Of a stretch of DNA of 64,000 nucleotides, positions 7,624 to 58,167 are shown one piece after another. The stretch is from Antarcticirhabdus aurantiaca (GTDB lineage: Bacteria; Pseudomonadota; Alphaproteobacteria; Rhizobiales; Rhizobiaceae): the NCBI RefSeq assembly GCF_009765365.1, contig NZ_VTOM01000009.1, positions 62,001 through 126,000 on the forward strand, written 5' to 3'. A model generated the notes under the pieces. The model ran no database searches. It saw only the letters and a list, made by a program, of their open reading frames with translations, and was not told the DNA's origin. The stretch's first letter is position 1. Each line of letters starts with the position of its first letter. The position numbers were made by a program, and so were the translations under genes.

Positions 7624-7627
<4 letters not shown>
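7025..7627 (-). CDS. ICMT/PEMT-like integral membrane methyltransferase
   Basis: A 200-residue polytopic membrane protein with four or five hydrophobic segments. The C-terminal half carries the pattern of isoprenylcysteine carboxyl methyltransferase-like enzymes: LVTTGLFEVSRNPTFLGM followed by helices and an E-E-x-F-L...F-G-x-x-Y-x-x-Y-K segment, which in this family binds SAM. Its ATG overlaps the stop of zntA (ATGA), so the two are translationally coupled and probably co-induced by metal. Small methyltransferases of this kind often sit beside metal-efflux genes, but their substrate is generally unknown. Confidence 0.8.
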
Positions 7628-9816
<2,189 letters not shown>

Positions 9817-9955: not shown

Positions 9956-10555
9956 TTATCGGACGCTGCCGACGAGAAGGTCGCGGACGTCTTCGATCGT
10001 CACCCACCGCCCGGCATGAGCCTCGGACTGGCGCTTCAGGTAGGTGTAGGGCGTCAGCTCCCAGGCGAGGACCCGATCCTCGAGGTTGTCGAGGATGAAG
10101 TCGCCCTGGTCGGTGCGCAGGGTCAGGACCGCGTGGCCGTCGCCGTTGCTCTGCCGAACGACGGTGATCAGGAGCGCCGAGGCCGGCACGCCCTCCGTCT
10201 CCAGGACGTGCTGCTTGAACAGGACGTAGTCCTCGCAGTCTCCCTCGCTCGTCGGATAGGACCAGAGTTCCGACACGCCATGCATCTCCTGATCGGTGCG
10301 CGGCTGGATGCGGACGTTCGCGAGATAGTTCACGCGCTGCACGGTCTGCCAGAGTTCGGGCGTCAGCTTCACGATTGCACGGACGGCATTGGGCGTGCAG
10401 GCAGCCGCTTCGCGGCGGCAGAAGTCGTGGTGGCCGATCGGCTGTGAGGCCGGCCCCGTCGTCGGCATCGGTCGTCCCGCCTGCGCCGAGGTAGCCGAAA
10501 TGACCCCCAGCGCCGTAAAGACCAGCGCAACCAAGGCACGACGAACCGCTCGCAT
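9956..10555 (-). CDS. BTLCP-type transglutaminase-like cysteine protease, secreted
   Basis: A 199-residue protein with an N-terminal signal peptide (ending near SAQA, residue 26). It belongs to the bacterial transglutaminase-like cysteine proteinase family: the catalytic Cys lies in SEGDCEDYVLFK, the His in GDGHAVLTLRT, and an Asp in FILDN. In other bacteria members of this family process large adhesins (LapG type) or have unknown roles; no LapA/LapD partner is visible in this window. It lies between zntA and its likely regulator but has no evident role in metal handling. Confidence 0.88.
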   Translation of the reverse strand: MRAVRRALVALVFTALGVISATSAQAGRPMPTTGPASQPIGHHDFCRREAAACTPNAVRAIVKLTPELWQTVQRVNYLANVRIQPRTDQEMHGVSELWSYPTSEGDCEDYVLFKQHVLETEGVPASALLITVVRQSNGDGHAVLTLRTDQGDFILDNLEDRVLAWELTPYTYLKRQSEAHAGRWVTIEDVRDLLVGSVR

Positions 10556-10834
10556 CCCCTGTCCCCCGCTCCGCCTCGTCCCCGTCCCGCCGCTCGGTGG
10601 CGGTGGTTAATGAAGACTTAACGCTGGTGCGCGGTCTCGGACAGGATGGTCTCGATGGTCGTGGTTAATACCCACAATCTTAGACGTCGCCGCGGCCACT
10701 CCGGCGGAGCGAGCCGCACATGGCCGCGTCGGGCGGCATCGTCGCCCCCGCCGCCAGCGCTTAGCGCATGCGGGTTGACGGGCCCGAGCCGGGTGGCCGA
10801 TGACGATGTCCAATCCAGCCTCGGGAGACGGGCG
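10556..10834. other. Intergenic region between BTLCP gene and merR-type gene
   Basis: About 280 bases between divergent genes. A TTGACG hexamer at 10775-10780 could be the -35 of the downstream regulator, and a short inverted repeat GTTAA-N7-TTAAC lies near 10606-10622. I see no second copy of the zntA operator here and no credible gene. Confidence 0.4.
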
Positions 10835-11257
10835 ATGACCCTCAGCGGCGTTGCGATCGGCGAAGCGTCGAAGGCCACCGGCATTAAGGTGCCGACGATC
10901 CGGTACTACGAGCAGATCGGGCTCCTGCCGGCGCCTCCCCGAACGGGCACGAACAGGCGCCTCTACAACGGCTCGGACCTGCGCCGGCTGCGCTTCATCC
11001 GCCACGCTCGCGAGTTGGGGTTCGAGATCGAGCCGATCCGCGAGCTGCTGGCGCTCGCCGGCGAGCCGGACCATCCCTGCGCCGACGCGGACCGCATCGC
11101 CCGCGCCCACCTCGCCGACATCGACCACAAGATCGCACGCCTGTCCGCGCTTCGAACGGAGGTGGCCAGGATGACGGAATGCCACCACGGCTCCGTCGCC
11201 GATTGCCGGGTCATCGAGGTGCTGGGCGACCATGGGCACTGCCTGACCGATCACTGA
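10835..11257 (+). CDS. MerR-family metal regulator (ZntR/CadR type)
   Basis: A 140-residue transcription activator. Residues 8-40 form the winged helix-turn-helix (ATGIKVPTIRYYEQIGLL), followed by the dimerisation helix and a metal loop. Cys82, Cys116, His117/118, Cys124 and Cys136 match the ligand pattern of zinc/cadmium/lead sensors such as ZntR (Cys79, Cys114/115, His119, Cys124). ATG 10835 is chosen because the HTH begins a few residues later and GGGAG precedes it; a longer frame reaching back to 10646 is Arg/Pro-rich and looks non-coding. The likely target is the operator about 1 kb away at 9848-9873. Confidence 0.9.
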   Translation: MTLSGVAIGEASKATGIKVPTIRYYEQIGLLPAPPRTGTNRRLYNGSDLRRLRFIRHARELGFEIEPIRELLALAGEPDHPCADADRIARAHLADIDHKIARLSALRTEVARMTECHHGSVADCRVIEVLGDHGHCLTDH

Positions 11258-11763: not shown

Positions 11764-12312
11764 GTGGAAGCGGTCCGCAGCGGCTATCGCACGACGGCGC
11801 GGGTCCTGCACTGGACGGTCGCCGTTCTCGTTCTCGGCATGATACCGGCCGGCCTCGCCATGACGACGGAGAGCCTGCCCCGCGGCGTGCGCGACATGCT
11901 GTTCATCGGGCACAAGAACGCGGGCGTCCTGGTGCTCGCTTTGATGCTGGCGCGGGTCGCCTTTCGCCTGACGCACAAGCCGCCGCCCTTGCCCGCCAGC
12001 CTGCCGCCGATCCAGCGGCACGTCGCGGCGGCGACGCACACCCTTCTCTACGTCGTCGTCCTCGTCATGGCCGTGTCCGGCTTCGTTCGCGTTCAAGCCG
12101 GCGGCTTCCCGATCGAGATGCTCGACGCGCTCGGCCTTCCGCCGCTCGTGCAGCGATCCGATGCCGTGGCCGAGACGGCGAAGCGCGTCCACTTCCTCGC
12201 GCACTACGCCGTCATCGGCCTCGTCGCCCTCCACATCGCGGGCGCGCTCCATCACGCGCTCTGGCGGCGGGACGGCCTGGTGCGGCGCATGTGGCCGCCG
12301 ATCGCGCCGTGA
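11764..12312 (+). CDS. Cytochrome b561-family membrane protein
   Basis: A 182-residue four-helix membrane protein of the prokaryotic cytochrome b561 (CybB) family. Histidines suitable for axial haem ligation lie in ARVLHW, IGHKNAG, RVHFLAHYAV and ALHIAGALHH, each at the edge of a hydrophobic segment. The role would be electron transfer between the quinone pool and another carrier. The GTG start at 11764 has a strong GGGAGGG ribosome site just upstream. It is monocistronic and ends 4 bases before the convergent methyltransferase gene. Confidence 0.9.
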   Translation: MEAVRSGYRTTARVLHWTVAVLVLGMIPAGLAMTTESLPRGVRDMLFIGHKNAGVLVLALMLARVAFRLTHKPPPLPASLPPIQRHVAAATHTLLYVVVLVMAVSGFVRVQAGGFPIEMLDALGLPPLVQRSDAVAETAKRVHFLAHYAVIGLVALHIAGALHHALWRRDGLVRRMWPPIAP

Positions 12313-12316
12313 TGGC

Positions 12317-13105
12317 TCAGCGCGCGGCGGGCACGGCGAGAAGATCGACGTGGCCGACGGTGCAGACCGCGCCGCTCGCGGCTGCCGATCGCCGGAACGC
12401 CGCCCAGTCCGCGAGATCGCCCGGCGAGATCCGACCCGTTTCGCCCACGGCCGCGGCGAAGCCGCCCAGAAAAGCGTCCTGAAGCGCCGCATCGACCGGA
12501 CCGAGGCGCCAGGCGCTGTCGGCGAGCCGGACCGCGAAGCCGCGGCGGCGAAACGCCTCGGCGCAGAGGCGCGGCGCCGCCGGGCCAAGCGCGGCGCCGA
12601 AGCCCTTGTCGCCGCCTTGATGCGCGGCGAAGGCCGACACGACGTCGGCGTCGAGCGGATGCGGCACGCTCCAGCCGACGCGGCCATCGACCGAGAGGGC
12701 GGCGTAGAACGGCAGGCGGCGCTCGGCCAGCGCATCGGCGAGGCGCTCCACGAACGAGGCCGATACGAGATCGAGCAAGGCCGACGCCGTAACGAGACCA
12801 GCTGCGTCGACCAGAGCGGGATCGAAGTCGGCGATGTCGGCGGCGAGCGTCTCGACCGCGTCGCCGCTTCGCCGCCGCGCTTGATCGAGAAGCACGGGAT
12901 CGGCGTCGACGAAGCGCCAGCGCGTGGCCTCCGCGAGCCGCGGCTGCAGAACTCGAAAGGTGGAGCCCGTGCCGGCGCCGAGATCCACCACGAGGCCGCC
13001 GCGCGCCCCGGCGAGCTGCGCCGCTTCAGCGAGAAGGCGCGGGTCGCGGGCGCGGGCGTCCGCGGGCTCGCGCAGGTCCAGCCAACTGCCGTCGAAGCCG
13101 CTCAC
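12317..13105 (-). CDS. Class I SAM-dependent methyltransferase
   Basis: A 262-residue cytosolic Rossmann-fold methyltransferase. Motif I is VVDLGAGTGSTFRVL (about residues 39-53), followed by the acidic end of strand beta-2 (FVDADP) and an ADIADFDP segment. It starts at GTG 13105, overlapping the stop of the glycosyltransferase gene (GTGA), and is the last gene of the minus-strand arm of the pterin-synthase-like locus. The substrate is probably the small molecule or glycan made by that locus; nothing in the sequence identifies it. Confidence 0.85.
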   Translation of the reverse strand: MSGFDGSWLDLREPADARARDPRLLAEAAQLAGARGGLVVDLGAGTGSTFRVLQPRLAEATRWRFVDADPVLLDQARRRSGDAVETLAADIADFDPALVDAAGLVTASALLDLVSASFVERLADALAERRLPFYAALSVDGRVGWSVPHPLDADVVSAFAAHQGGDKGFGAALGPAAPRLCAEAFRRRGFAVRLADSAWRLGPVDAALQDAFLGGFAAAVGETGRISPGDLADWAAFRRSAAASGAVCTVGHVDLLAVPAAR

Positions 13106-14148
13106 CGTGCCGTCTCGTTCAGCGCGCCGGCGACGAGCGACGCCGTGTCCCGCCAGCTCGGCAGCAGCTCGGCGGCCTGGCGCGCGCCGCGCGCGAAGGC
13201 CGCGCGCTCTGCATCGCTGGACAGGAGACGCCGCAGAGCCGCGGCGAGCTGAGTCGGATCGTCCTGCGGCACCAGGATGCCCGCCGTTTCCGGCACGACG
13301 TCGGGAACCGCACCGGCCCGCGCGGCGATGATGGGCAGGCCGTGCGCCATGGCCTCGGCGAAGACCATGCCATAGCCTTCGTAGCGGCTGGGCAGCGCGA
13401 AGACGTGGGCGCCGGCATATTCGGCCGACGGATCGGCCACGCCGCCGACGAACACGACGCGCTCGCCGAGGCCGTGCCGCGCGGCCCGCTCGCGCAGGGC
13501 CGCGCCCCAGGCGGGGTCGATCGAGTCGCCGCCGACGATGCGGCAGCGCCAGTCGAGGTCGGCCAGAAGCGCCAGGGCGTCGATCAGAACGTCGTAGCCC
13601 TTGCGCGGGATCAAGGAGCCGACCGACAGGACGAGCGGCGGGCCTGCCGGCGGCTCGCGCGCCGGCGCACGGTCGGTGCCGGGCGGCGCCACGGTCAGGC
13701 GCGCGCGCGGCACGCCGAAGGCCGCGACCAGCGTTTCAGCCGTGGCGGGGCTCGTCACCACGACGGCCAGGGCCTCCGCCAACGCCTGGACCTCGGAGTC
13801 GCGCAGCTCGGCGGCGAGCGCGGGATCGAGCCCTGTCTCGAGCGCCAGGGGATGGTGGACGAGCGCGACGAGGCGCAGCCGCCGCGCCTCGGCCGCGGCC
13901 GTCTTCGGCATCAGGGCGTAGGCGAGACCGTCGACGAGGACGAGGTCTCCGTCCGGAAGGGCGGCGAGGGCGGAAGCGGCCTCCACTTCCGCGTCGCGCG
14001 CGTTGTCCAGAGCGAGCGACGGCAGGGCAACGTGCCGGACATCCCAACCGAGGAGGCGCAGCTCGGCCATGAGGCGCCGGTCGTAGCCGTAGCCGCCGGT
14101 GCGTGCCTCGATGTCGCCGGGAACGACGACGTGGAGGACGGCGCTCAC
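13102..14148 (-). CDS. GT4-family glycosyltransferase
   Basis: A 348-residue GT-B-fold glycosyltransferase. The N-terminal acceptor domain begins LHVVVPGDIEARTGGYGYDRRL. The donor domain carries LSVGSLIPRKGYDVLIDAL near 190 and the E-x7-E type motif EGYGMVFAEAMAHGLP near 258-273, with the following GAVPDVV. This is typical of retaining GT4 enzymes using nucleotide sugars. It starts at GTG 14148, overlapping the stop of the PTPS-like gene, and overlaps the downstream methyltransferase by 4 bases, so the arm is tightly coupled. Confidence 0.9.
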   Translation of the reverse strand: MSAVLHVVVPGDIEARTGGYGYDRRLMAELRLLGWDVRHVALPSLALDNARDAEVEAASALAALPDGDLVLVDGLAYALMPKTAAAEARRLRLVALVHHPLALETGLDPALAAELRDSEVQALAEALAVVVTSPATAETLVAAFGVPRARLTVAPPGTDRAPAREPPAGPPLVLSVGSLIPRKGYDVLIDALALLADLDWRCRIVGGDSIDPAWGAALRERAARHGLGERVVFVGGVADPSAEYAGAHVFALPSRYEGYGMVFAEAMAHGLPIIAARAGAVPDVVPETAGILVPQDDPTQLAAALRRLLSSDAERAAFARGARQAAELLPSWRDTASLVAGALNETAR

Positions 14149-14543
14149 AGATCGGCCTCGAACCAGGCGCGGGCGACGTTGGACTCGTGGAGCCGCACGC
14201 GCAGACGCACGATCCGCGCGCCGCCGCCGCCCAGGCGCCCGTCCCGGATCAAGCCCGCGATGGCGTCGAAGATGTGCCGCGCCAGCACCTCGGTCGTCGT
14301 GACGCGCCCGGCAAAGACCGGCAGCTCATCGAGATTGGCGTAGTTCAGCGGCGCGAGCACCTCCCGCAGCACCTCGAAGGCGAGGCCGATGTCGACGCCG
14401 AGGCCGTCCTCGTCCAGCTCGCGCGTGAAGAAGGCGGCGTCGACGTGGAAGGTCGCGCCGTGCATGCCCTGCGCCGGTCCGAAGACCGGGCGCGGAAGGC
14501 TGTGGGCGATCATGATGTGATCGCTGACTTCGACGGCGAACAT
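14145..14543 (-). CDS. PTPS/QueD-like protein with degenerate active site
   Basis: A 132-residue protein with the 6-pyruvoyl-tetrahydropterin synthase/QueD fold pattern: HIMIAHSLP (His14), MHGATFHVD (His28), PLNYANLDELPVF, a T-T-T-E-x-L-A stretch and LHESNVA (Glu120). Compared by eye with E. coli QueD, key positions have changed: the catalytic Cys27 is Ala24 here, the second zinc His of HGH is Ala30, and the Asp70-His71 pair (LDH) is Asn67-Tyr68. Ordinary 6-carboxytetrahydropterin synthesis is therefore unlikely, although annotation pipelines would probably assign it. ATG 14543 follows an AAGGAG ribosome site. It lies between the BchC-like dehydrogenase and the glycosyltransferase. Confidence 0.85.
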   Translation of the reverse strand: MFAVEVSDHIMIAHSLPRPVFGPAQGMHGATFHVDAAFFTRELDEDGLGVDIGLAFEVLREVLAPLNYANLDELPVFAGRVTTTEVLARHIFDAIAGLIRDGRLGGGGARIVRLRVRLHESNVARAWFEADL

Positions 14544-14553
14544 GGCGGCTCCT

Positions 14554-15540
14554 TCAATAACGGATGCGATGGCAGAGAGTGTCTGGCGCGTCGAGCACCG
14601 CGGCGTAGTCGTGAGCAAGCGAGGCGAAGTCGCTCTCGCCCGACACGAGCGCGTCGAGTTCCGGCCGGTCGCGAAGAAGGCGCAAGGCGAGGTCGAGACG
14701 GCGGGCCGTGCTCCAGCGCGCCCGCCGCGCCGGGGGAACGGCGCCGACCTGCGAGCCAAGGATCGACAGGCGCTTCGAGTGAAACGCGCCGCCGAGCCGC
14801 AGCTCGACGGGCGCGGTGCCGTACCAGCTCGCCTCGACGGCCCGACCCTCGAAGCCGAGGCAGGCGATCGCGGTGTCGAGGCCCCCGGCGCTGCCGCTGA
14901 CATGGACGGCGACGTCGCAATCCGTCGGCGCTTCGCCGGGCGCCGCGAAGCCAATCCCGAGCGCGGCCGCGAGGCGCTCGCGCCCCGAGGCGACGTCGAC
15001 CAGCGTCACCTCCGTTCCGGGAATGCCAGCGGCGAGAGCGGCGACGAGCGCGCCGACCATCCCGGCTCCGATCACGGCAAGCCGGTCGCCGAGCTGGAGG
15101 CCGGCGTCCCAGACGATCGTCAGCGCCGTTTCCATGTTCGCGGCGAGCACCGCGCGCTCCGCCGGCAGTCCCTCCGGCACGAGGTGCAGAGCCTCGGACG
15201 GCACGACGAAGCGATCCTGGTGAGGGTGGAGGCAGAAGACGGTGCGGCCGATAAGAGCCGCGGGGCCCGCCTCGACGAGCCCGACCGAGGCGTAGCCGTA
15301 CTTCAGCGGAAAGTCGAAGCCGCCGGCCTGAAAGGGCGCGCGCATCGCTTCGTGCTGGTCCGCCGGCACGCGGCCTTGGAAGACCAGCCGCTCCGTTCCG
15401 CGGCTGATCGCGCCGAAGCGGGTCGCGACGCGGCACTCTCCGTCTTTCGGCTCCCGCAGCCGTTCGCGGCGCAGCGCCGCCCGCCCCGCAGCCTCGATCC
15501 ACAGCGCCGTCGCCTCATGCCGCCGCGGCTCGTCGCTCAT
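14554..15540 (-). CDS. BchC-like medium-chain dehydrogenase/reductase
   Basis: A 328-residue medium-chain dehydrogenase. The cofactor motif is LAVIGAGMVGALVAAL, the N-terminal half has SRGTERLVFQGRVP and FPLKYGYASVGLVEAG, and it ends with LCHRIRY. The SxGTERL...P...YxSVG pattern resembles the chlorophyllide dehydrogenase BchC group. The zinc-ADH signature GHE is replaced by GYA and the structural-zinc Cys cluster is missing, so a zinc-independent mechanism is likely. It is the first gene of the minus arm, with GAGG upstream of ATG 15540, and 10 bases separate it from the PTPS-like gene. Confidence 0.85.
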   Translation of the reverse strand: MSDEPRRHEATALWIEAAGRAALRRERLREPKDGECRVATRFGAISRGTERLVFQGRVPADQHEAMRAPFQAGGFDFPLKYGYASVGLVEAGPAALIGRTVFCLHPHQDRFVVPSEALHLVPEGLPAERAVLAANMETALTIVWDAGLQLGDRLAVIGAGMVGALVAALAAGIPGTEVTLVDVASGRERLAAALGIGFAAPGEAPTDCDVAVHVSGSAGGLDTAIACLGFEGRAVEASWYGTAPVELRLGGAFHSKRLSILGSQVGAVPPARRARWSTARRLDLALRLLRDRPELDALVSGESDFASLAHDYAAVLDAPDTLCHRIRY

Positions 15541-15655
15541 CGGTCCTCGTCGGTGGTCACAAATCGATCAACGCTCATTGTCGCATTCCTGAATCAGCGG
15601 CACTGCCGCTCTAGGTTTCATTGTCATCCGCATCCGCAAGGCCGCAACCCCCATC
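15541..15655. promoter_or_regulatory. Divergent promoter region of the PTPS-like/glycolipid locus
   Basis: 115 bases between the two arms of the locus, each starting here in opposite directions. It is AT-richer than its surroundings (15555-15635), as expected of promoters. A small inverted repeat, AGCGGCAC followed by TGCCGCT, lies near 15596-15611. I cannot assign -35/-10 elements with confidence. The shared region suggests the two arms are expressed together. Confidence 0.5.
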
Positions 15656-16423
15656 ATGACCCTCCACAACCCTCGCATCGTGCCGCAGGCCTCCGCCGTC
15701 CGCCTCGCCCGATGGGGAGTCGCGGGGGCCTTCGCCGCTTCGACGCTCCTGCTTCTCGGCGTCGGTGTCCTGGCGATCGGTACATTCGAGCTGGGCTGGG
15801 AGCTGCTGCCGCTCTCGACCGCCCTGTTCGCGGCGATCGGCGTCATCGTCCTGACCAGCCTGCCGAACGGCCACCCGCATGCCCGGTTCGGACCGGCCAA
15901 CACCATCACCACGCTCCGGGCCGCCATGACGGTGCTTCTTGCTGGTCTGCTGCCGGAAGCGGATCGGATCGCCGATCCGGCGCAGGCGGGCCTTGCCTGG
16001 ACGCTGACCGGCTTCGCCGCGCTCGCGCTCGCCCTCGACGGCTTCGATGGGCAGGCCGCGCGGCGCAGCGGGCTCGCTTCGCGCTTCGGCGCGCGCTACG
16101 ACATGGAGGTGGATGCCCTCCTCATCCTCGTGCTCTCGGTATTCGCGCTCGCCTCCGGCAAGGCGGGCGTTTTCGTTCTCGCGATCGGGCTGATGCGCTA
16201 CCTCTTCGTCGCCCTCCTCGCCCTCGTGCCCAGCCTGGACGGCGAGCTCGCGCCCTCGCTGCGCCGGAAGGTCGTCTGCGTGGTCCAGGTCGGAGTGCTC
16301 TGCGCCCTCCTCGCGCCGCCGCTCGAGCCGCCGCTCTCGGGCTGGCTGGCGGCCGCGGCTCTCGCCCTGCTCACGGCTTCCTTTGCCGCCGACATCCTCG
16401 CTTTGGCGCGTCGTCGCGGATGA
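15656..16423 (+). CDS. CDP-alcohol phosphatidyltransferase family enzyme
   Basis: A 255-residue polytopic membrane enzyme. The CDP-alcohol phosphotransferase signature is complete: DGFDGQAAR, then eight residues, GARYD and D three residues later, all in about 122-147, and it binds two metals and the CDP moiety. The family joins a CDP-activated lipid or polyol to an alcohol; the substrate here is unknown. About six hydrophobic helices are visible. The ribosome site before ATG 15656 is poor. It is the first gene of the plus arm, and its stop overlaps the start of the FkbM gene (ATGA). Confidence 0.9.
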   Translation: MTLHNPRIVPQASAVRLARWGVAGAFAASTLLLLGVGVLAIGTFELGWELLPLSTALFAAIGVIVLTSLPNGHPHARFGPANTITTLRAAMTVLLAGLLPEADRIADPAQAGLAWTLTGFAALALALDGFDGQAARRSGLASRFGARYDMEVDALLILVLSVFALASGKAGVFVLAIGLMRYLFVALLALVPSLDGELAPSLRRKVVCVVQVGVLCALLAPPLEPPLSGWLAAAALALLTASFAADILALARRRG

Positions 16424-17160
16424 AGGCCGACGTCGCGTCCACGCTCGGCCTCTGGCGCTCGCTTCTCATCTATCGCGGCCAGCCCTGGCGCACCCTGGCG
16501 CTGCGCCGCTTCTGCCGGACGCTCGTTCGACCCGGCGACCTCGCCTTCGACGTCGGGGCTCATGTCGGCAGCCGGGCTCGGGCCCTGGCTGCCGCGGGCG
16601 CCAGGGTCGTCGCGATCGAGCCCCAGCCGCTCTTCGCCGACTACCTCGCGCGGCGCGTCGCCGGTCCGCGCATCGCCGTGCTGCCGGTGGCGCTCGGCCG
16701 AACGCCGGGGCGCGCGACGCTGAACGTGTCGCGCCGGCACCCGACCGTGTCCACGCTGTCGGCGGACTGGATCGGCAAGGTGCGGGAGGCGCCGGGCTTT
16801 TCGGGCGTGCGCTGGGAGGGCCGCACCGAGGTTCCCGTGACGACGCTCGACGCGCTCATCGCCGAGCACGGCCGCCCGGCATTCTGCAAGATCGACGTGG
16901 AGGGGCTGGAGGCGGAGATCCTCGGCGGCCTCAGCCAGCCGATCCCGCTGCTTTGCTTCGAGATCCTGCCGGCAGCAGCCGACATCGCGGAAGCCTGCAT
17001 CCGACGGCTCGCGGGGCTCGGACCCTACCGCTTCGGCTTCGTGCCGGGCGAGCGGCACCGGTTGGGAGACGAATGGCTGAGCGCGGACAGGATGGTGGCG
17101 CGGCTTCCCGACATCGCGGCGGCCGGCCGCTCCGGCGACATCTATGCCCGCCTCCAGTGA
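16420..17160 (+). CDS. FkbM-family methyltransferase
   Basis: A 246-residue methyltransferase of the FkbM type. Motif I is AFDVGAHVGSRARALAAAGARVVAIEPQP (start near residue 43), and the family hallmark FCKIDVEGLEAEILGGL appears near 158-174. FkbM enzymes usually O-methylate sugars or polyketides. The start at ATG 16420 overlaps the preceding stop and the 3' end overlaps the sulfatase-like gene by 17 bases, so the arm is translationally coupled. An O-methylation of the locus product is inferred. Confidence 0.9.
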   Translation: MKADVASTLGLWRSLLIYRGQPWRTLALRRFCRTLVRPGDLAFDVGAHVGSRARALAAAGARVVAIEPQPLFADYLARRVAGPRIAVLPVALGRTPGRATLNVSRRHPTVSTLSADWIGKVREAPGFSGVRWEGRTEVPVTTLDALIAEHGRPAFCKIDVEGLEAEILGGLSQPIPLLCFEILPAAADIAEACIRRLAGLGPYRFGFVPGERHRLGDEWLSADRMVARLPDIAAAGRSGDIYARLQ

Positions 17161-18769
17161 CGGCCGGCGCCTGACGCCGCTGCGCGCGACCTTCGGCGCC
17201 GCGCTCCTCGCGGCCGGATCGACGCTTCCGGCGCCGGGCGGCGGGCTGCCGTCCAGCCTTCCGCTGGAATGGCCGGTCGCGATTCTGCTCCTGGTCACCG
17301 CTGCCCCGTCGCGCCTGTTGTTCACCGCCCTCCGGCTGCTCGTGACGGTCGCCGTGGCGCTGACCGTCTTCTTGAAGCTCGCCGACCTCGGCACCGGGCT
17401 CGCCTTCTCGCGTCCCTTCAATCCGCTCCTCGACGCATCGCTCCTCGTGTCCGGCTGGCACCTCCTGTCCGGCACGATCGGGCGCGGCGAGGCGCTGGCC
17501 GTCGTAGTTCTCGCGCTTGCAGCCTGGGGCGCGGCGACGGCGCTCCTGTTCTGGTGCTTCGGCGGCTTCCGCCGCCTGCCGAGGGGGCCGCGCCGGCTCG
17601 TCGGCGGCCTCGCCGCCGCAGTCGTGGCGCTGTGGCTCGTGCCATCCGGTCCGGTGAAGCCGGAGGCGACGCGCTATCTCGAAGCCCGCCTCGATCTCGT
17701 CGCGCAGTCCGTCGCGAGCCTCGCGCGCTTCGAGGATTCGCTCGCGACCGATCCACTGGCCGGCCATCCGCCGGAGACCCTCTTCTCGGCGCTGTCCGGC
17801 AAGGACGTGATGGTGCTCTTCGTCGAATCCTACGGGCGAAGCGCCGTGGAGGATCCCGCCTATGCTGGCACGACGCTGAGCCGCCTTCGCGCGGCGGAAA
17901 GCTATCTGTCGGCGGCAGGCATCGGGGCCGTCAGCGGCTGGCTGACGTCGCCGACCCTCGGCGGGCAGAGCTGGCTCGCGCACGGCGCCCTTCTGTCCGG
18001 TCTCTGGACGAGCGACCAGAGCCTTTACGACCGGATGATCGCGAGCGATCGGGCAAGTCTCAACGCCCTGTTCCGCGACGCCGGCTGGCGGACGATCGCG
18101 GCCATGCCGGCGATCACCATGGATTGGCCGGAAGCCGGCTGGTTCGGCTACGACGCCGTGTTCGACGCGCACAATCTGGGCTATCGCGGCAAGCCGTTCG
18201 ACTGGGTGACGATGCCCGATCAGTTCACGCTCGCCGCGATCCGGCGGATCGTCGAGGCGGAGCATCCGCGCCCCGTGATGGTGGAGGCAGCGCTGATCTC
18301 CAGTCACGCCCCCTGGACGCCGCTGCCGCGGATGGTGCCCTGGGAAGACGTCGGCGACGGTCGCATCTTCGATGGTCAGGCCGCGTCCGGCGAGAAGCCC
18401 GAGGTGTTGTGGCGCGACCCGGCGCGAGTCCGCGCCGCCTATGGCCGTTCGATCGACTACGCGCTGGAGGCGGTCTTCTCCTATGCCGCGACCTTCGGCC
18501 GGAACACCGTCTTCGTGATCCTCGGCGACCATCAGCCCGCGCCGCTGATCACCGGCGAAGGCGCCGCGCGCGACGTGCCCGTCCACATCCTCTCGGACGA
18601 CCCGGCGATCCTGCGCCGCTTCGCCGGCTGGAACTGGACGCCGGGCCTCGTTCCGGCGGCCGATCTGCCCCCTTGGCGGATGGATGCGTTCCGCGAGCGC
18701 TTTGCGCACACGACGAGCGATTCGCCGCTTCCCTCGCCCGAGCATGCGGGCCATAGCTCGACGCCATGA
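17144..18769 (+). CDS. Membrane sulfatase/LTA-synthase-like enzyme
   Basis: A 541-residue protein with about five N-terminal membrane helices (to roughly residue 175) and a periplasmic alkaline-phosphatase-superfamily domain. VMVLFVESYGRSAVED (about 220-235) carries the first metal-binding Glu and the likely nucleophile region, SPTLGGQSWLAHGALLSG follows, and VFVILGDHQPAPLI near 460 is the C-terminal Asp-His metal site. The layout resembles LTA synthase and phosphoglycerol/phosphoethanolamine transferases more than true sulfatases, suggesting transfer of a phospho-alcohol head group onto a glycan or lipid outside the membrane. It pairs logically with the CDP-alcohol enzyme upstream. Confidence 0.85.
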   Translation: MPASSDGRRLTPLRATFGAALLAAGSTLPAPGGGLPSSLPLEWPVAILLLVTAAPSRLLFTALRLLVTVAVALTVFLKLADLGTGLAFSRPFNPLLDASLLVSGWHLLSGTIGRGEALAVVVLALAAWGAATALLFWCFGGFRRLPRGPRRLVGGLAAAVVALWLVPSGPVKPEATRYLEARLDLVAQSVASLARFEDSLATDPLAGHPPETLFSALSGKDVMVLFVESYGRSAVEDPAYAGTTLSRLRAAESYLSAAGIGAVSGWLTSPTLGGQSWLAHGALLSGLWTSDQSLYDRMIASDRASLNALFRDAGWRTIAAMPAITMDWPEAGWFGYDAVFDAHNLGYRGKPFDWVTMPDQFTLAAIRRIVEAEHPRPVMVEAALISSHAPWTPLPRMVPWEDVGDGRIFDGQAASGEKPEVLWRDPARVRAAYGRSIDYALEAVFSYAATFGRNTVFVILGDHQPAPLITGEGAARDVPVHILSDDPAILRRFAGWNWTPGLVPAADLPPWRMDAFRERFAHTTSDSPLPSPEHAGHSSTP

Positions 18770-19587
18770 CGCCCGATCCCATCCTCATCGCCGAAACCGT
18801 GGTCCTGCTCCTGGGCGCCAGCGCCTTTGCCGGCGTTCTCGCCGGCCTGTTCGGCATCGGCGGCGGCGCCGTCTTCGTGCCGGTGCTCTACCAGACCTTC
18901 GGCCTGTTCGGCGTCGATCCCGACGTGTCGATGCAGCTCGCCATCGGCTCCTCGCTCGCGATCGTCGTGCCGACCTCGATCCGCTCGGTGATGAGCCACC
19001 GCGCGCATGGCGCGGTCGATTTCGAGCTGCTTCGAAGCTGGATCGTCATCGTGCCGCTCGGCGCCGTCGCCGGCGCCGCGATCGCCGCCGCGATCTCGTC
19101 GGAAGCCCTGCGCTCGATCTTCGCGGTGATCGCCTTCGTGATCGGCGTGCAGCTCTTGATCGGCAAGCTGCCCTTCACCCTCGGAACCGACCTGCCCGGC
19201 CGTCTCGGCCGCTGGATCGCCGGCATCTTCATCGGCATGGTCGCCGCGCTGATGGGCATCGGCGGCGGCGTTCTCAACAACACCTTCATGACGCTGTACG
19301 GGCGCTCGATCCACCAGGCCGTGGCGACCTCGGCGGGGGTCGGCGTGCTCGTCTCGATCCCGGGCCTCGTCGCCTTCGTGATCGGCGGCTGGGGCCATCC
19401 GGACCTGCCGGCCTGGAGCCTCGGCTACATCAGCCTGCCGGTGATCCTGATCGTCGCGCCGCTGGCGACGCTGTTCACCCCGCTCGGCGCGCGCCTCGCC
19501 CACCGGCTGACCAAGCGGCAGCTGCAGGTCGGCTTCGGCGTCTACCTCCTGACCGTGGCGCTGCGCTTCTTCATCAGCCTGATCTAG
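18766..19587 (+). CDS. TauE/SafE (TSUP) family permease
   Basis: A 273-residue membrane protein with eight or so helices and the duplicated glycine-rich motif of the family: GLFGIGGGAVFVPVL near residue 27 and ALMGIGGGVLNN near 161. TSUP members export or import sulfur-containing anions and organic acids. Its ATG overlaps the stop of the sulfatase-like gene (ATGA), so it is transcribed with the plus arm. Whether it belongs functionally, for instance as exporter of an anionic precursor or of sulfite, is inference. Confidence 0.9.
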   Translation: MTPDPILIAETVVLLLGASAFAGVLAGLFGIGGGAVFVPVLYQTFGLFGVDPDVSMQLAIGSSLAIVVPTSIRSVMSHRAHGAVDFELLRSWIVIVPLGAVAGAAIAAAISSEALRSIFAVIAFVIGVQLLIGKLPFTLGTDLPGRLGRWIAGIFIGMVAALMGIGGGVLNNTFMTLYGRSIHQAVATSAGVGVLVSIPGLVAFVIGGWGHPDLPAWSLGYISLPVILIVAPLATLFTPLGARLAHRLTKRQLQVGFGVYLLTVALRFFISLI

Positions 19588-56448: not shown

Positions 56449-58167
56449 ATGGCGAAGATCTCGAGGCGGCAATATTCGGACCTCTACGGTCCCACGACCG
56501 GCGACAAGATCCGGCTGAGCGACACGGATCTCTACATCGAGATCGAGAAGGATCTGCGCGTCTACGGCGAGGAGGCCGTCTACGGCGGCGGCAAGACGCT
56601 GCGCGACGGCATGGGCTACGACAACGAGCTCACCAGCGCGGCGGGCGCTCCCGATCTCGTCATCACCAACGTCACCATCCTCGACGCCGTGCAGGGCGTC
56701 ATCAAGGCGGATGTCGGCATCAAGAACGGGTTGATCTGCGGCATCGGCAAGGCCGGCAACCCGTCCACCATGTCGGGCGTCACCCCCGGCCTCGCGCTCG
56801 GGCCGGGCACGGACGCGATCTCGGGCGAGCATCTCATCCTGACGGCGGGCGGCATCGACGCGCACGTCCATTACATCTCGCCCCAGCAGGCCCAGGCTGC
56901 CCTGTCCAACGGCGTCACCACCCTGTTCGGGGGCGGCATCGGACCGAGCGACGGCACCAACGGCACCACGATCACCCCCGGCACCTGGAACATCGAGATG
57001 ATGCTCCGGTCGTTCGACGGCTGGCCGGTGAATGCCGGCGTGCTCGGCAAGGGCAACGGCTCGGCACCGATCCCGATCGAGGAGCAGATCCGCGCCGGCG
57101 CGGCGGGCCTCAAGATCCACGAGGACTGGGGATCGACGCCGGCCGCGATCCGCAACGCCCTGACCGTCGCCGACAGTCACGACGTCCAGGTCTGCATCCA
57201 CACCGATACGCTGAACGAGGCCGGCTTCGTCGAGAACACGATCGCCGCCTTCGAGGGCCGCACCATCCATACCTACCACACGGAAGGTGCCGGCGGCGGC
57301 CATGCGCCGGACATCATCCGCGTGGCGGGCCTCCCGAACGTCATTCCCAGCTCGACCAATCCGACGCTGCCCTACGGGATCAACTCCCAGGCCGAGCTGT
57401 TCGACATGACGATGATCTGTCACAATCTCAGCCCGAAGATCCCCACCGACGTGGCCTTCGCCGAGAGCCGGGTTCGCGCCGAGACCATCGCGGCCGAGAA
57501 CGTGCTGCACGATCTCGGGGCGATCTCGATCCTGTCCAGCGACAGTCAGGCGATGGGCCGCATCGGCGAGAACTGGACGCGCACCATCCAGACCGCCGAT
57601 CTGATGAAGCTGCGGCGCGGCGCCTACACCGGCGACACCTCGGGCAACGACAACGAACGCGTGCTGCGCTTCGTCGCGAAGGTCACGATCAACCCCGCCA
57701 TCGCGCAGGGTGTCGCCCGCGTCGTCGGCTCGATCGAGGTCGGCAAGATGGCCGACCTCGTGCTCTGGGAGCCGGCCTTCTTCGGCGCCAAGCCGAAGAT
57801 GGTCATCAAGGGCGGCATGATCTCCTGGGCGCTGATGGGCGATCCCAACGCCTCGCTGCCGACGCCCCAGCCGGTGATCTACCGGCCGATGTTCGGCGCG
57901 ATGGGATCGGCCCTGCCCCGCACCCGCGTGACGTTCACCTCGCACGCCGCCGTCGAGGACGGGATCGTCGACCGCTACGAGCTGAAGTCCCAGGTCCTGC
58001 CCGTCTACGGGACGCGGACCATCACCAAGAACTCGATGGTGCGCAACAGCACCCTGCCGGTGATCGAGGTCAATCCGGAGACCTTCGCCGTCACGGTCGA
58101 CGGCACCCATGCCACGATCGAGCCGGCGACGCGTCTCCCGCTCACCCAGCTCCACTTCTTCAGCTGA
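56449..58167 (+). CDS. ureC: Urease alpha (catalytic) subunit
   Basis: A 572-residue catalytic subunit hydrolysing urea to ammonia and CO2. All active-site residues are present with a constant offset of 5 from Klebsiella UreC: His139, His141, carbamylated Lys222, His251, His277 and Asp365 for the two nickel ions, with flap Cys324 and general-acid His325. The flap reads CHNLSP where most ureases have CHHLDP. This fits the second-type urease seen in Brucella ure2. AATGGAGCTCTGAG upstream supplies the ribosome site. Confidence 0.98.

Follow-up and report, generated by a model that had tools for sequence, protein, structure and literature searches.

A cluster of eight tightly packed genes (positions 12317-19587) lies in a 64,000-nucleotide stretch of the Antarcticirhabdus aurantiaca genome (contig NZ_VTOM01000009.1, positions 62,001 to 126,000 of the forward strand), which is called the window here. 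On balance, this locus is probably a reduced member of a widespread biosynthetic cluster that is built around a PTPS-IV protein and makes a glycoside derived from GTP. The core of the cluster consists of a dehydrogenase, the PTPS protein, a GT4 glycosyltransferase, a methyltransferase and a reductase; the lipid and envelope genes are its variable part, not its centre. The core genes present in the window all lie on the minus strand: a BchC-like MDR-superfamily dehydrogenase without the zinc alcohol dehydrogenase signature (14554-15540; BchC model 1.1e-17, below cut-off), the PTPS-IV-type T-fold protein with its FGPAQ motif (14145-14543, ATG at 14543; PF01242 2.1e-19), the GT4 glycosyltransferase (13102-14148; PF00534 5.4e-35) and a class I SAM-dependent methyltransferase of the small-molecule type (12317-13105; PF13649 4.9e-6). 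A sequence-only reading of this DNA had assigned these and four plus-strand genes to named families, and all eight frames are present with the family matches that it claimed.

Recurrence of the cluster across genomes

Genome contigs were scanned with the PTPS, and the best 80 of 233 relatives, most of them Rhizobiales by title, were kept and scored by profile searches on all reading frames. A gene is counted as near when it falls in the fetched stretch, about 9-10 kb per side and less at contig ends, and the neighbourhood counts are lower bounds. The dehydrogenase, PTPS and GT4 genes were found in all 80 scan loci and the methyltransferase in 79. Less constant were a RibD-type reductase (70/80), a CDP-alcohol phosphotransferase (CAP, 69/80), an LtaS-like enzyme (68/80), a flippase-like protein (66/80), the GTP cyclohydrolase II (GCHII)-like RibA2 (60/80, 59 of them over 150 bits), a cytochrome b561 (60/80) and an FkbM methyltransferase (50/80); a TSUP permease was seen at one locus (L002) and a creatininase at none. 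In the commonest order, found at 26 of the 80 loci, the LtaS-like, flippase-like, FkbM, CAP and RibA2 genes stand divergent to the dehydrogenase, PTPS, GT4 and methyltransferase genes, which are followed by the RibD-type reductase and cytochrome b561. The window cluster has this arrangement except that RibA2, the RibD-type reductase and the flippase-like gene are missing; the same reduced gene set is found in L002, its nearest relative.

Between the window and L002, the proteins of the eight genes are 90-97% identical (PTPS 97%) and the ratio of nonsynonymous to synonymous substitution rates (dN/dS) is 0.08-0.22 across all eight, meaning that they are maintained by purifying selection; the ratio is 0.30 for the cytochrome b gene next to them. 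Since the dehydrogenase, PTPS and GT4 genes occur jointly at every scan locus and purifying selection acts on the whole set of eight, the grouping goes beyond chance, and the proposal of the sequence-only reading that these genes form a coordinated set is upheld by a recurrent neighbourhood.

The association also holds at the level of whole genomes. A PTPS profile made from 15 sequences (E 1e-25) matched 45 of 385 alphaproteobacterial genomes, with the weakest match at E 3.8e-44, and a dehydrogenase profile made from 16 sequences (E 1e-30) found exactly the same 45 genomes, which carry 24 family labels. The cluster-type reductase, counted from 239 bits upwards (below that, the best match has 165), is present in 38 of the 45 PTPS-positive genomes vs 1 of the 340 others (Fisher p 3e-44, kinship ignored), and the single PTPS-negative carrier is a 74%-complete genome. 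It is retained even where it lies about 62 kb (G028) or about 950 kb (G380) away from the PTPS gene, and in the draft genome G035 the PTPS, dehydrogenase and reductase genes are on three contigs. Pairwise distances among the cluster genes correlate at 0.76-0.96 (kinship ignored).

At the 44 alphaproteobacterial PTPS loci other than that of the window (class loci), the PTPS was accompanied by the dehydrogenase in 43, GT4 in 42, the methyltransferase in 38 and the reductase in 35 cases. The other genes were scarcer: RibA2 over 150 bits in 17 (a 68-bit match at L119, a zinc-less RibBA, was left out of this count), CAP in 13, cytochrome b561 in 10 (one of them a weak match of 49 bits), creatininase in 8, FkbM in 6 and the LtaS-like gene in 5, with the flippase-like and TSUP genes in none.

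Outside the class, a phylum-wide sample gave 27 positive genomes out of 398, including 11 in the same phylum yet outside the class; from the family of the window, 3 of the 17 listed genomes were positive. The 23 further phylum loci held the dehydrogenase in all cases, GT4 in 22, the reductase in 20, the methyltransferase in 15, CAP in 12, the flippase-like gene in 11, RibA2 in 10, FkbM in 7, cytochrome b561 in 6, creatininase in 5, and the LtaS-like gene and YceI in 4 each. A PTPS match was also present in 20 plasmid records, seven of which were examined. Six of the seven carry the dehydrogenase, PTPS, methyltransferase and GT4, among them plasmids of Streptomyces fungicidicus, Microbacterium and the gammaproteobacterium Thiodictyon; on a Palleronia plasmid the GT4 gene lies about 3 kb upstream of the dehydrogenase. 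The core together with CAP and either GCHII or RibD is found on the Streptomyces, Microbacterium and Thiodictyon plasmids and in phylum members outside the class. Thus, the dehydrogenase-PTPS-GT4-methyltransferase core recurs in both Pseudomonadota and Actinomycetota, and a neighbourhood that crosses phyla is therefore old or mobile. Two of the outcomes that the earlier reading had named as fatal to its idea, a neighbourhood confined to this strain and genes scattered independently among relatives, are both contradicted by the 45 shared genomes and by the carriers in other classes and in Actinomycetota.

Three loci from genomes of only 1.4-1.6 Mb (L130, L131 and L132) have the creatininase, dehydrogenase, PTPS, GT4, methyltransferase, reductase and GCHII genes all together. 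The retention of the cluster in genomes of this size argues for a valuable product.

The PTPS-IV protein and its enzymatic partners

The closest solved structure to the window PTPS, the only PTPS-family gene in its genome, is 3d7j (SCO6650; 6.3e-35, full length). From the alignment with E. coli QueD, the catalytic Cys and, in the HGH motif, the last His are replaced by Ala, and the Asp-His pair by Asn-Tyr; H14, H28, E85 and E120 are retained, and these include the C-terminal Glu, the His of HG and the first of the zinc His residues. Judged by the catalytic residues of QueD, the window protein has lost one zinc ligand and the Cys/Asp/His catalytic residues and has kept the pterin-anchoring Glu. 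The same pattern runs through the family, with HGA in 155/155 PTPS sequences, exact FGPAQ in 151/155 and HGH in 0/155. A QueD or PTPS-I role in queuosine synthesis is therefore rejected, the CxxxHGH motif, the third zinc His and the Asp-His pair all being absent.

Residues 21-25 of the window PTPS, FGPAQ, are the published signature of PTPS-IV, and the published neighbours of this subfamily are PF00925 and PF01872 (both from the accessible part of PMC5445326). The window copy has neither neighbour, and its relatives have both in abundance (RibD_C in 70/80 and GCHII over 150 bits in 59/80 scan loci). The sequence-only reading had guessed at an unusual heterocycle bound or supplied by the PTPS-like protein; this guess is strengthened by the relatives, whose clusters also encode GCHII and a ribosylaminopyrimidine-type reductase.

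The cluster RibD-type protein of L091, the one protein scanned, contains the PF01872 reductase domain only, the deaminase domain being absent. Among solved structures, the 13-sequence reductase profile is nearest to 2,5-diamino-6-ribosylamino-4(3H)-pyrimidinone 5'-phosphate reductase (6p8c, 1.4e-43) and to 2azn, and by the name of these relatives the cluster reductase would be of a type that acts before the 2-amino group is removed. The cluster GCHII proteins over 150 bits all have the zinc Cys motif (89/89), and 88/89 have the conserved Tyr (RAY, with RTY in L114 and RSY in L095). The GCHII of the Streptomyces fungicidicus cluster (L087, 14479-15138, plus strand) reads RAM, with Met replacing this Tyr, and is adjoined by a creatininase-family gene (13645-14436, minus strand). 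In work on SCO6655, Met at the Tyr position has reportedly been tied to retention of the formyl group. The sequences thus suggest that the Streptomyces cluster uses a two-enzyme route, with a formyl-retaining GCHII and a creatininase-family deformylase.

Four genomes (G161, G216, G382 and G015) have a second zinc-bearing GCHII outside the cluster, and in these the cluster GCHII is an extra enzyme and not simply a housekeeping one. In ten others (G131, G355, G277, G162, G060, G348, G316, G337, G189 and G326) the cluster GCHII is the sole zinc-bearing copy among those checked, the other PF00925 copies being zinc-less or altered; G189 also has a second divergent PF00925 paralogue (L206) with an altered Cys pattern and a weak score of 57 bits. 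In the window genome, the single PF00925 match is a RibBA (L085, 769-1956, plus strand) whose GCHII half lacks the zinc Cys motif; a complete canonical RibD is encoded elsewhere, and there is one creatininase-family match. The window is not unique in this respect, because at least 6 of the 45 PTPS-positive genomes (G000, G064, G096, G184, G205 and G229) have a single PF00925 match, which is zinc-less. Likewise, of 20 low-scoring RibBA-like copies checked in PTPS-positive alphaproteobacteria (L196-L215), 19 have a GCHII half without the zinc Cys motif, an observation that bears on the missing cyclohydrolase 'BrbG' postulated for S. meliloti in the accessible part of PMC9478397. According to the same text, riboflavin synthesis in S. 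meliloti does not need RibBA and runs instead through the formamidase BrbF and a cyclohydrolase yet to be identified. By analogy, the window organism may make its riboflavin precursor in this way, and the cluster may then tap it.

GHE..G is the signature of zinc alcohol dehydrogenases. This motif was found in 0/154 cluster dehydrogenases, which have S.GTE (150/154) and a YGY column instead, so that the label 'zinc-binding alcohol dehydrogenase' given to them in plasmid records is rejected. The best NCBIfam match of the window dehydrogenase is BchC, and at 64.1 bits vs a cut-off of 291.25 it is not identified as BchC itself. The solved relatives of GT4 by sequence include the MshA-type D-inositol 3-phosphate glycosyltransferase 7qsg. 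For the methyltransferase, the model (pLDDT 95.6) matched 3mgg best in Foldseek and also trans-aconitate methyltransferase 2p35; these folds are generic small-molecule ones and therefore give no hint of the substrate.

Gene layout and the envelope-side genes

The two arms of the window cluster are separated by a divergent intergenic region of 115 bases (15541-15655). Four of the six same-strand junctions are 4-base ATGA/GTGA overlaps (13102-13105, 14145-14148, 16420-16423 and 18766-18769), in agreement with the earlier statement that most junctions overlap in this manner; the PTPS/dehydrogenase junction is a 10-base gap, and the FkbM/LtaS-like junction is a 17-base overlap, provided that the start call is correct. 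As for the single promoter region proposed for both arms, the divergent gap is real, and a sigma-70-like site was not found in it, which says little for a high-GC alphaproteobacterium; a shared promoter region is plausible. At this place, L052, L074, L091 and many other relatives have a GCHII-like gene between CAP and the dehydrogenase.

The plus arm starts with the membrane CAP (15656-16423; PF01066 3.7e-16, 60.3 bits vs a cut-off of 22). The CAP family motif is D..DG..AR(8)G(3)D(3)D, and it was complete in 101 of 102 homologues scored; no solved relative was found by sequence at E 0.1. CAP is followed by the accessory FkbM-family methyltransferase (16420-17160; TIGR01444 3.4e-24, above cut-off) and by a second accessory enzyme, a membrane-anchored phospho-alcohol transferase-like protein of the LtaS/EptA fold (17144-18769; PF00884 7.8e-8). 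A search at E 0.1 gave no sequence match between this LtaS-like protein and a solved structure. Its model (pLDDT 84.5) has helices at 42-201 followed by the catalytic domain, and VIA-align placed it closest to LtaP (4uop, Z 22.1, 270 residues, rmsd 3.7), GacH (5u9z, Z 21.2) and EptA (4kay, Z 20.0), with LtaS also among the aligned folds (Z 20-22); identity to these transferases in the structural alignments is 8-16%, and sulfatases align at Z 18-19. The model thus points to a membrane-anchored enzyme of the alkaline-phosphatase superfamily with the LtaS/EptA fold, a fold that by itself does not separate a transferase from a sulfatase.

These results redraw the gene set of the sequence-only reading, most of whose genes are recurrent. 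The TauE/SafE (TSUP) permease (18766-19587, plus strand; PF01925 6.2e-43), which overlaps the LtaS-like gene and had been counted as a member, is rejected as part of the pathway, since its place here is shared only with L002 (1/80 scan and 0/44 class loci) and appears incidental. In its stead, the cytochrome b561-family membrane haem protein (11764-12312, plus strand; PF01292 5.9e-29), which is convergent with the methyltransferase gene and had been left out, belongs to the recurrent set (60/80 scan, 10/44 class and 6/23 phylum loci). The suggested logic of a lipid or envelope glycoside stands in part: the LtaS-like label holds at the level of the fold, and the envelope genes are variable (CAP 13/44, LtaS-like 5/44 and FkbM 6/44 class loci). 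Several loci have the core with no CAP, FkbM, LtaS-like or flippase-like match in the stretch (L115, L116, which is cut by a contig end, L118 and L126).

Two other gene families are seen next to the cluster. An MdoH-type glucan glucosyltransferase adjoins the cluster dehydrogenase, mostly divergently, in 8/44 class loci, 7/23 phylum loci and L089 (L141, L143, L144, L145, L149, L151, L158 (overlapping frames), L089, L094-L096, L098, L101, L103, L109 and L110). A YceI-family gene is present in the stretch at 12/44 class and 4/23 phylum loci (L102, 12551-13201, minus strand; L157, L159, L161, L162 and others), near CAP or the reductase where inspected. In E. coli, YceI is encoded next to a cytochrome b561. 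The MdoH and YceI neighbours point to the periplasm, without settling the matter.

Elsewhere in the window, a heavy-metal P-type ATPase with an HMA domain (7624-9816, minus strand) near a MerR-family regulator (10646-11257, plus strand) is likely a metal-efflux pair. A transglutaminase-like cysteine peptidase (BTLCP, PF06035) is encoded at 9956-10555 (minus strand), and tblastn matched it downstream of the cluster at 16/81 loci. An Rfam match to the 5' ureB small RNA family lies at 56599-56899 (minus strand; 60 bits, gathering score 40).

Proposed pathway, alternatives and known systems

From the gene content, co-occurrence, active-site residues and folds we infer the chemical steps, their order and the lipid attachment as follows. 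A dedicated GCHII would open GTP to 2,5-diamino-6-ribosylamino-pyrimidinone phosphate; in the Streptomyces variant, a formyl-retaining GCHII with a creatininase-family deformylase would probably do so. The stand-alone RibD-type reductase would then convert the ribosyl to a ribityl chain with the 2-amino group kept, and the PTPS-fold protein would use its conserved Glu to bind the 2-amino-4-oxo ring, which it would close or reshape to a pteridine, or else hand on. The BchC-like dehydrogenase may adjust the oxidation state of the side chain, GT4 would add a sugar and the methyltransferase would cap the product. Where present, CAP would attach a phosphatidyl group to the product or to its polyol, transfer to the outer face would fall to the flippase-like protein, and this face is also where the LtaS-fold enzyme and cytochrome b561 would act on it. 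Since the window copy is without the cyclohydrolase, the reductase and the flippase-like gene, it either takes the pyrimidine from the riboflavin route of the cell or is losing the pathway.

Several observations weigh against this GTP-derived glycoside. Genome-wide searches of the window genome found neither a cluster-type GCHII nor a cluster-type reductase, which means that the locus cannot encode the first steps itself, and six other PTPS-positive genomes are likewise without the cluster-type reductase. RibA2 and CAP are not obligatory near the core, because only 17 and 13 of the 44 class loci have them. Of the core, L136 (G233) holds only the dehydrogenase and PTPS, and in one of the seven plasmid records (L086, Streptomyces anthocyanicus) none of the partners accompanies the PTPS. 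In 10 of those 17 genomes the cluster GCHII is the sole zinc-bearing one among the copies checked, and a housekeeping role in riboflavin synthesis is therefore possible there. Scans of the window, L091, L052, L113 and L130 gave no riboswitch at gathering score.

If the cluster were a flavin module, it would supply and decorate a flavin or a precursor of riboflavin (a flavin or lumazine that is glycosylated and exported would be one example), with its cyclohydrolase and reductase feeding riboflavin synthesis. GCHII and RibD_C are indeed families of riboflavin enzymes, the RibBA GCHII half is zinc-less in 19/20 low-scoring copies and the cluster GCHII is the only zinc-bearing copy among those checked in ten genomes, and S. 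meliloti separates secreted from internal flavin synthesis (accessible part of PMC9478397). However, the L091 reductase has no deaminase domain and the reductase profile is nearest to a type acting before deamination, the PTPS-IV residues, with the Glu kept, suit a 2-amino ring, four genomes have another zinc-bearing GCHII and the window genome has its own complete RibD. Genes committed to riboflavin were not recognised by eye among the listed recurrent neighbours, RibB, RibH and RibE not having been searched for. Taken together, a flavin module is unlikely. We also doubt that the cluster is an envelope pathway proper, for a methylated glycolipid or a substituted periplasmic glucan, with the PTPS-like protein as an incidental sensor or structural protein. 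CAP, LtaS-like, flippase-like and FkbM genes are frequent in the scan loci, which are mostly from Rhizobiaceae (69, 68, 66 and 50 of 80), the MdoH-type gene adjoins the dehydrogenase at the loci given above, and the fold match is to phosphoglycerol and phosphoethanolamine transferases; yet across the class these genes vary, some loci have the core with none of them in the stretch, and it is the PTPS and dehydrogenase that share the same 45/385 genomes, with the reductase nearly following.

A deazaflavin or F420-related pathway would share the precursor, and PTPS-IV is stated to take part in archaeal F420 synthesis in an unpublished remark (accessible part of PMC5041015). CofH, however, is over its cut-off in 8/45 PTPS-positive vs 51/340 PTPS-negative genomes (Fisher p 0.66, kinship ignored) and absent from the window genome, so the F420 link is rejected for alphaproteobacteria on these counts and is highly improbable overall. 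Finally, the cluster of the window organism could be decaying, with three supply and export genes gone and the remainder functionless, as the absence of cluster-type GCHII and reductase from its genome and the equally reduced L002 would allow. We consider this quite unlikely in view of the dN/dS of 0.08-0.22 for the eight genes, their intact frames and the 97% PTPS identity to L002, and because five genomes with a single zinc-less PF00925 (G064, G096, G184, G205 and G229) keep the dehydrogenase, PTPS, GT4 and methyltransferase.

Within the preferred reading of a GTP-derived glycoside, a more speculative and in itself unlikely version gives the product a place in the membrane: as a glycosylated pteridine (or ribityl-diaminopyrimidine) anchored to a lipid, it would work there as a redox carrier or, outside the cytoplasm, as a cofactor. 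The phosphatidyl group would be attached by CAP, an LPG-synthase-TM-type protein would flip the product outward, cytochrome b561 and, at other loci, the lipid-binding-type YceI would exchange electrons with it or carry it, and PTPS-IV would form or handle the ring in a new branch that starts from GTP. We know of no description of such a class of cofactor lipid.

If the GTP-derived pathway is confirmed, about 12% of the sampled alphaproteobacterial genomes (45/385), including those of 1.4-1.6 Mb, carry one without an assigned product. The PTPS-IV subfamily and the uncharacterised structure 3d7j would gain a concrete biochemical context, and ribosyl- and ribityl-diaminopyrimidinone would become testable substrates for a catalytically stripped T-fold protein. 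Should the lipid link hold, pteridine-type chemistry would be tied to enzymes of phospholipids and the cell surface, a connection that would be new to biology. The analysis also corrects two names in plasmid records, where the PTPS is labelled '6-carboxytetrahydropterin synthase' and the dehydrogenase a zinc-binding alcohol dehydrogenase.

The closest solved counterpart of the window PTPS is SCO6650 (3d7j) of Streptomyces coelicolor, and the Streptomyces context described here comes from plasmids of other Streptomyces. SCO6650 reportedly lacks zinc and the catalytic triad, does not perform the PTPS reaction and keeps the pterin-binding residues. QueD and PTPS-I share with the window PTPS the PF01242 T-fold, the anchor Glu, the first His and the HG His, and differ in CxxxHGH and Asp-His, which are replaced in the window protein. 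Biopterin is made by the GTP cyclohydrolase I (GCHI) route, from which a route through GCHII and a ribosyl reductase would differ. The proposed product would resemble the cyanobacterial pterin glycosides in having a sugar on a pterin, a comparison by compound type and not by genes (review, accessible part of PMC13259868). The BrbF formamidase route of Sinorhizobium and Brucella is similar in its creatininase-family deformylase and GTP-derived diaminopyrimidine; as described in the accessible part of PMC9478397, it makes riboflavin, and the cluster goes beyond it with the PTPS, the dehydrogenase and chemistry for a sugar, a methyl group and a CDP-alcohol. LtaS, LtaP, GacH and EptA resemble the LtaS-like protein in the fold of the extracytoplasmic domain (Z about 20-22) and are unlike it in sequence, as the low identities above show.

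The sequence-only reading had stated that no such pathway is described. Searches of open-licence papers gave, among the matches listed, no description of the whole gene set or of its product, but PTPS-IV with PF00925 and PF01872 is already in print (accessible part of PMC5445326). The cluster would thus be a pathway branching from GTP and riboflavin-precursor chemistry. The subfamily described there (COG0720 / IPR007115, AGeNNT cluster 62) is like the present cluster in its FGPAQ motif and, in the relatives, in its PF00925 and PF01872 neighbours, both absent from the window copy. It differs in that the accessible text mentions no product, dehydrogenase, GT4, methyltransferase or CAP and labels PF00925 as GTP cyclohydrolase I, whereas the Pfam model used here is that of GTP cyclohydrolase II.

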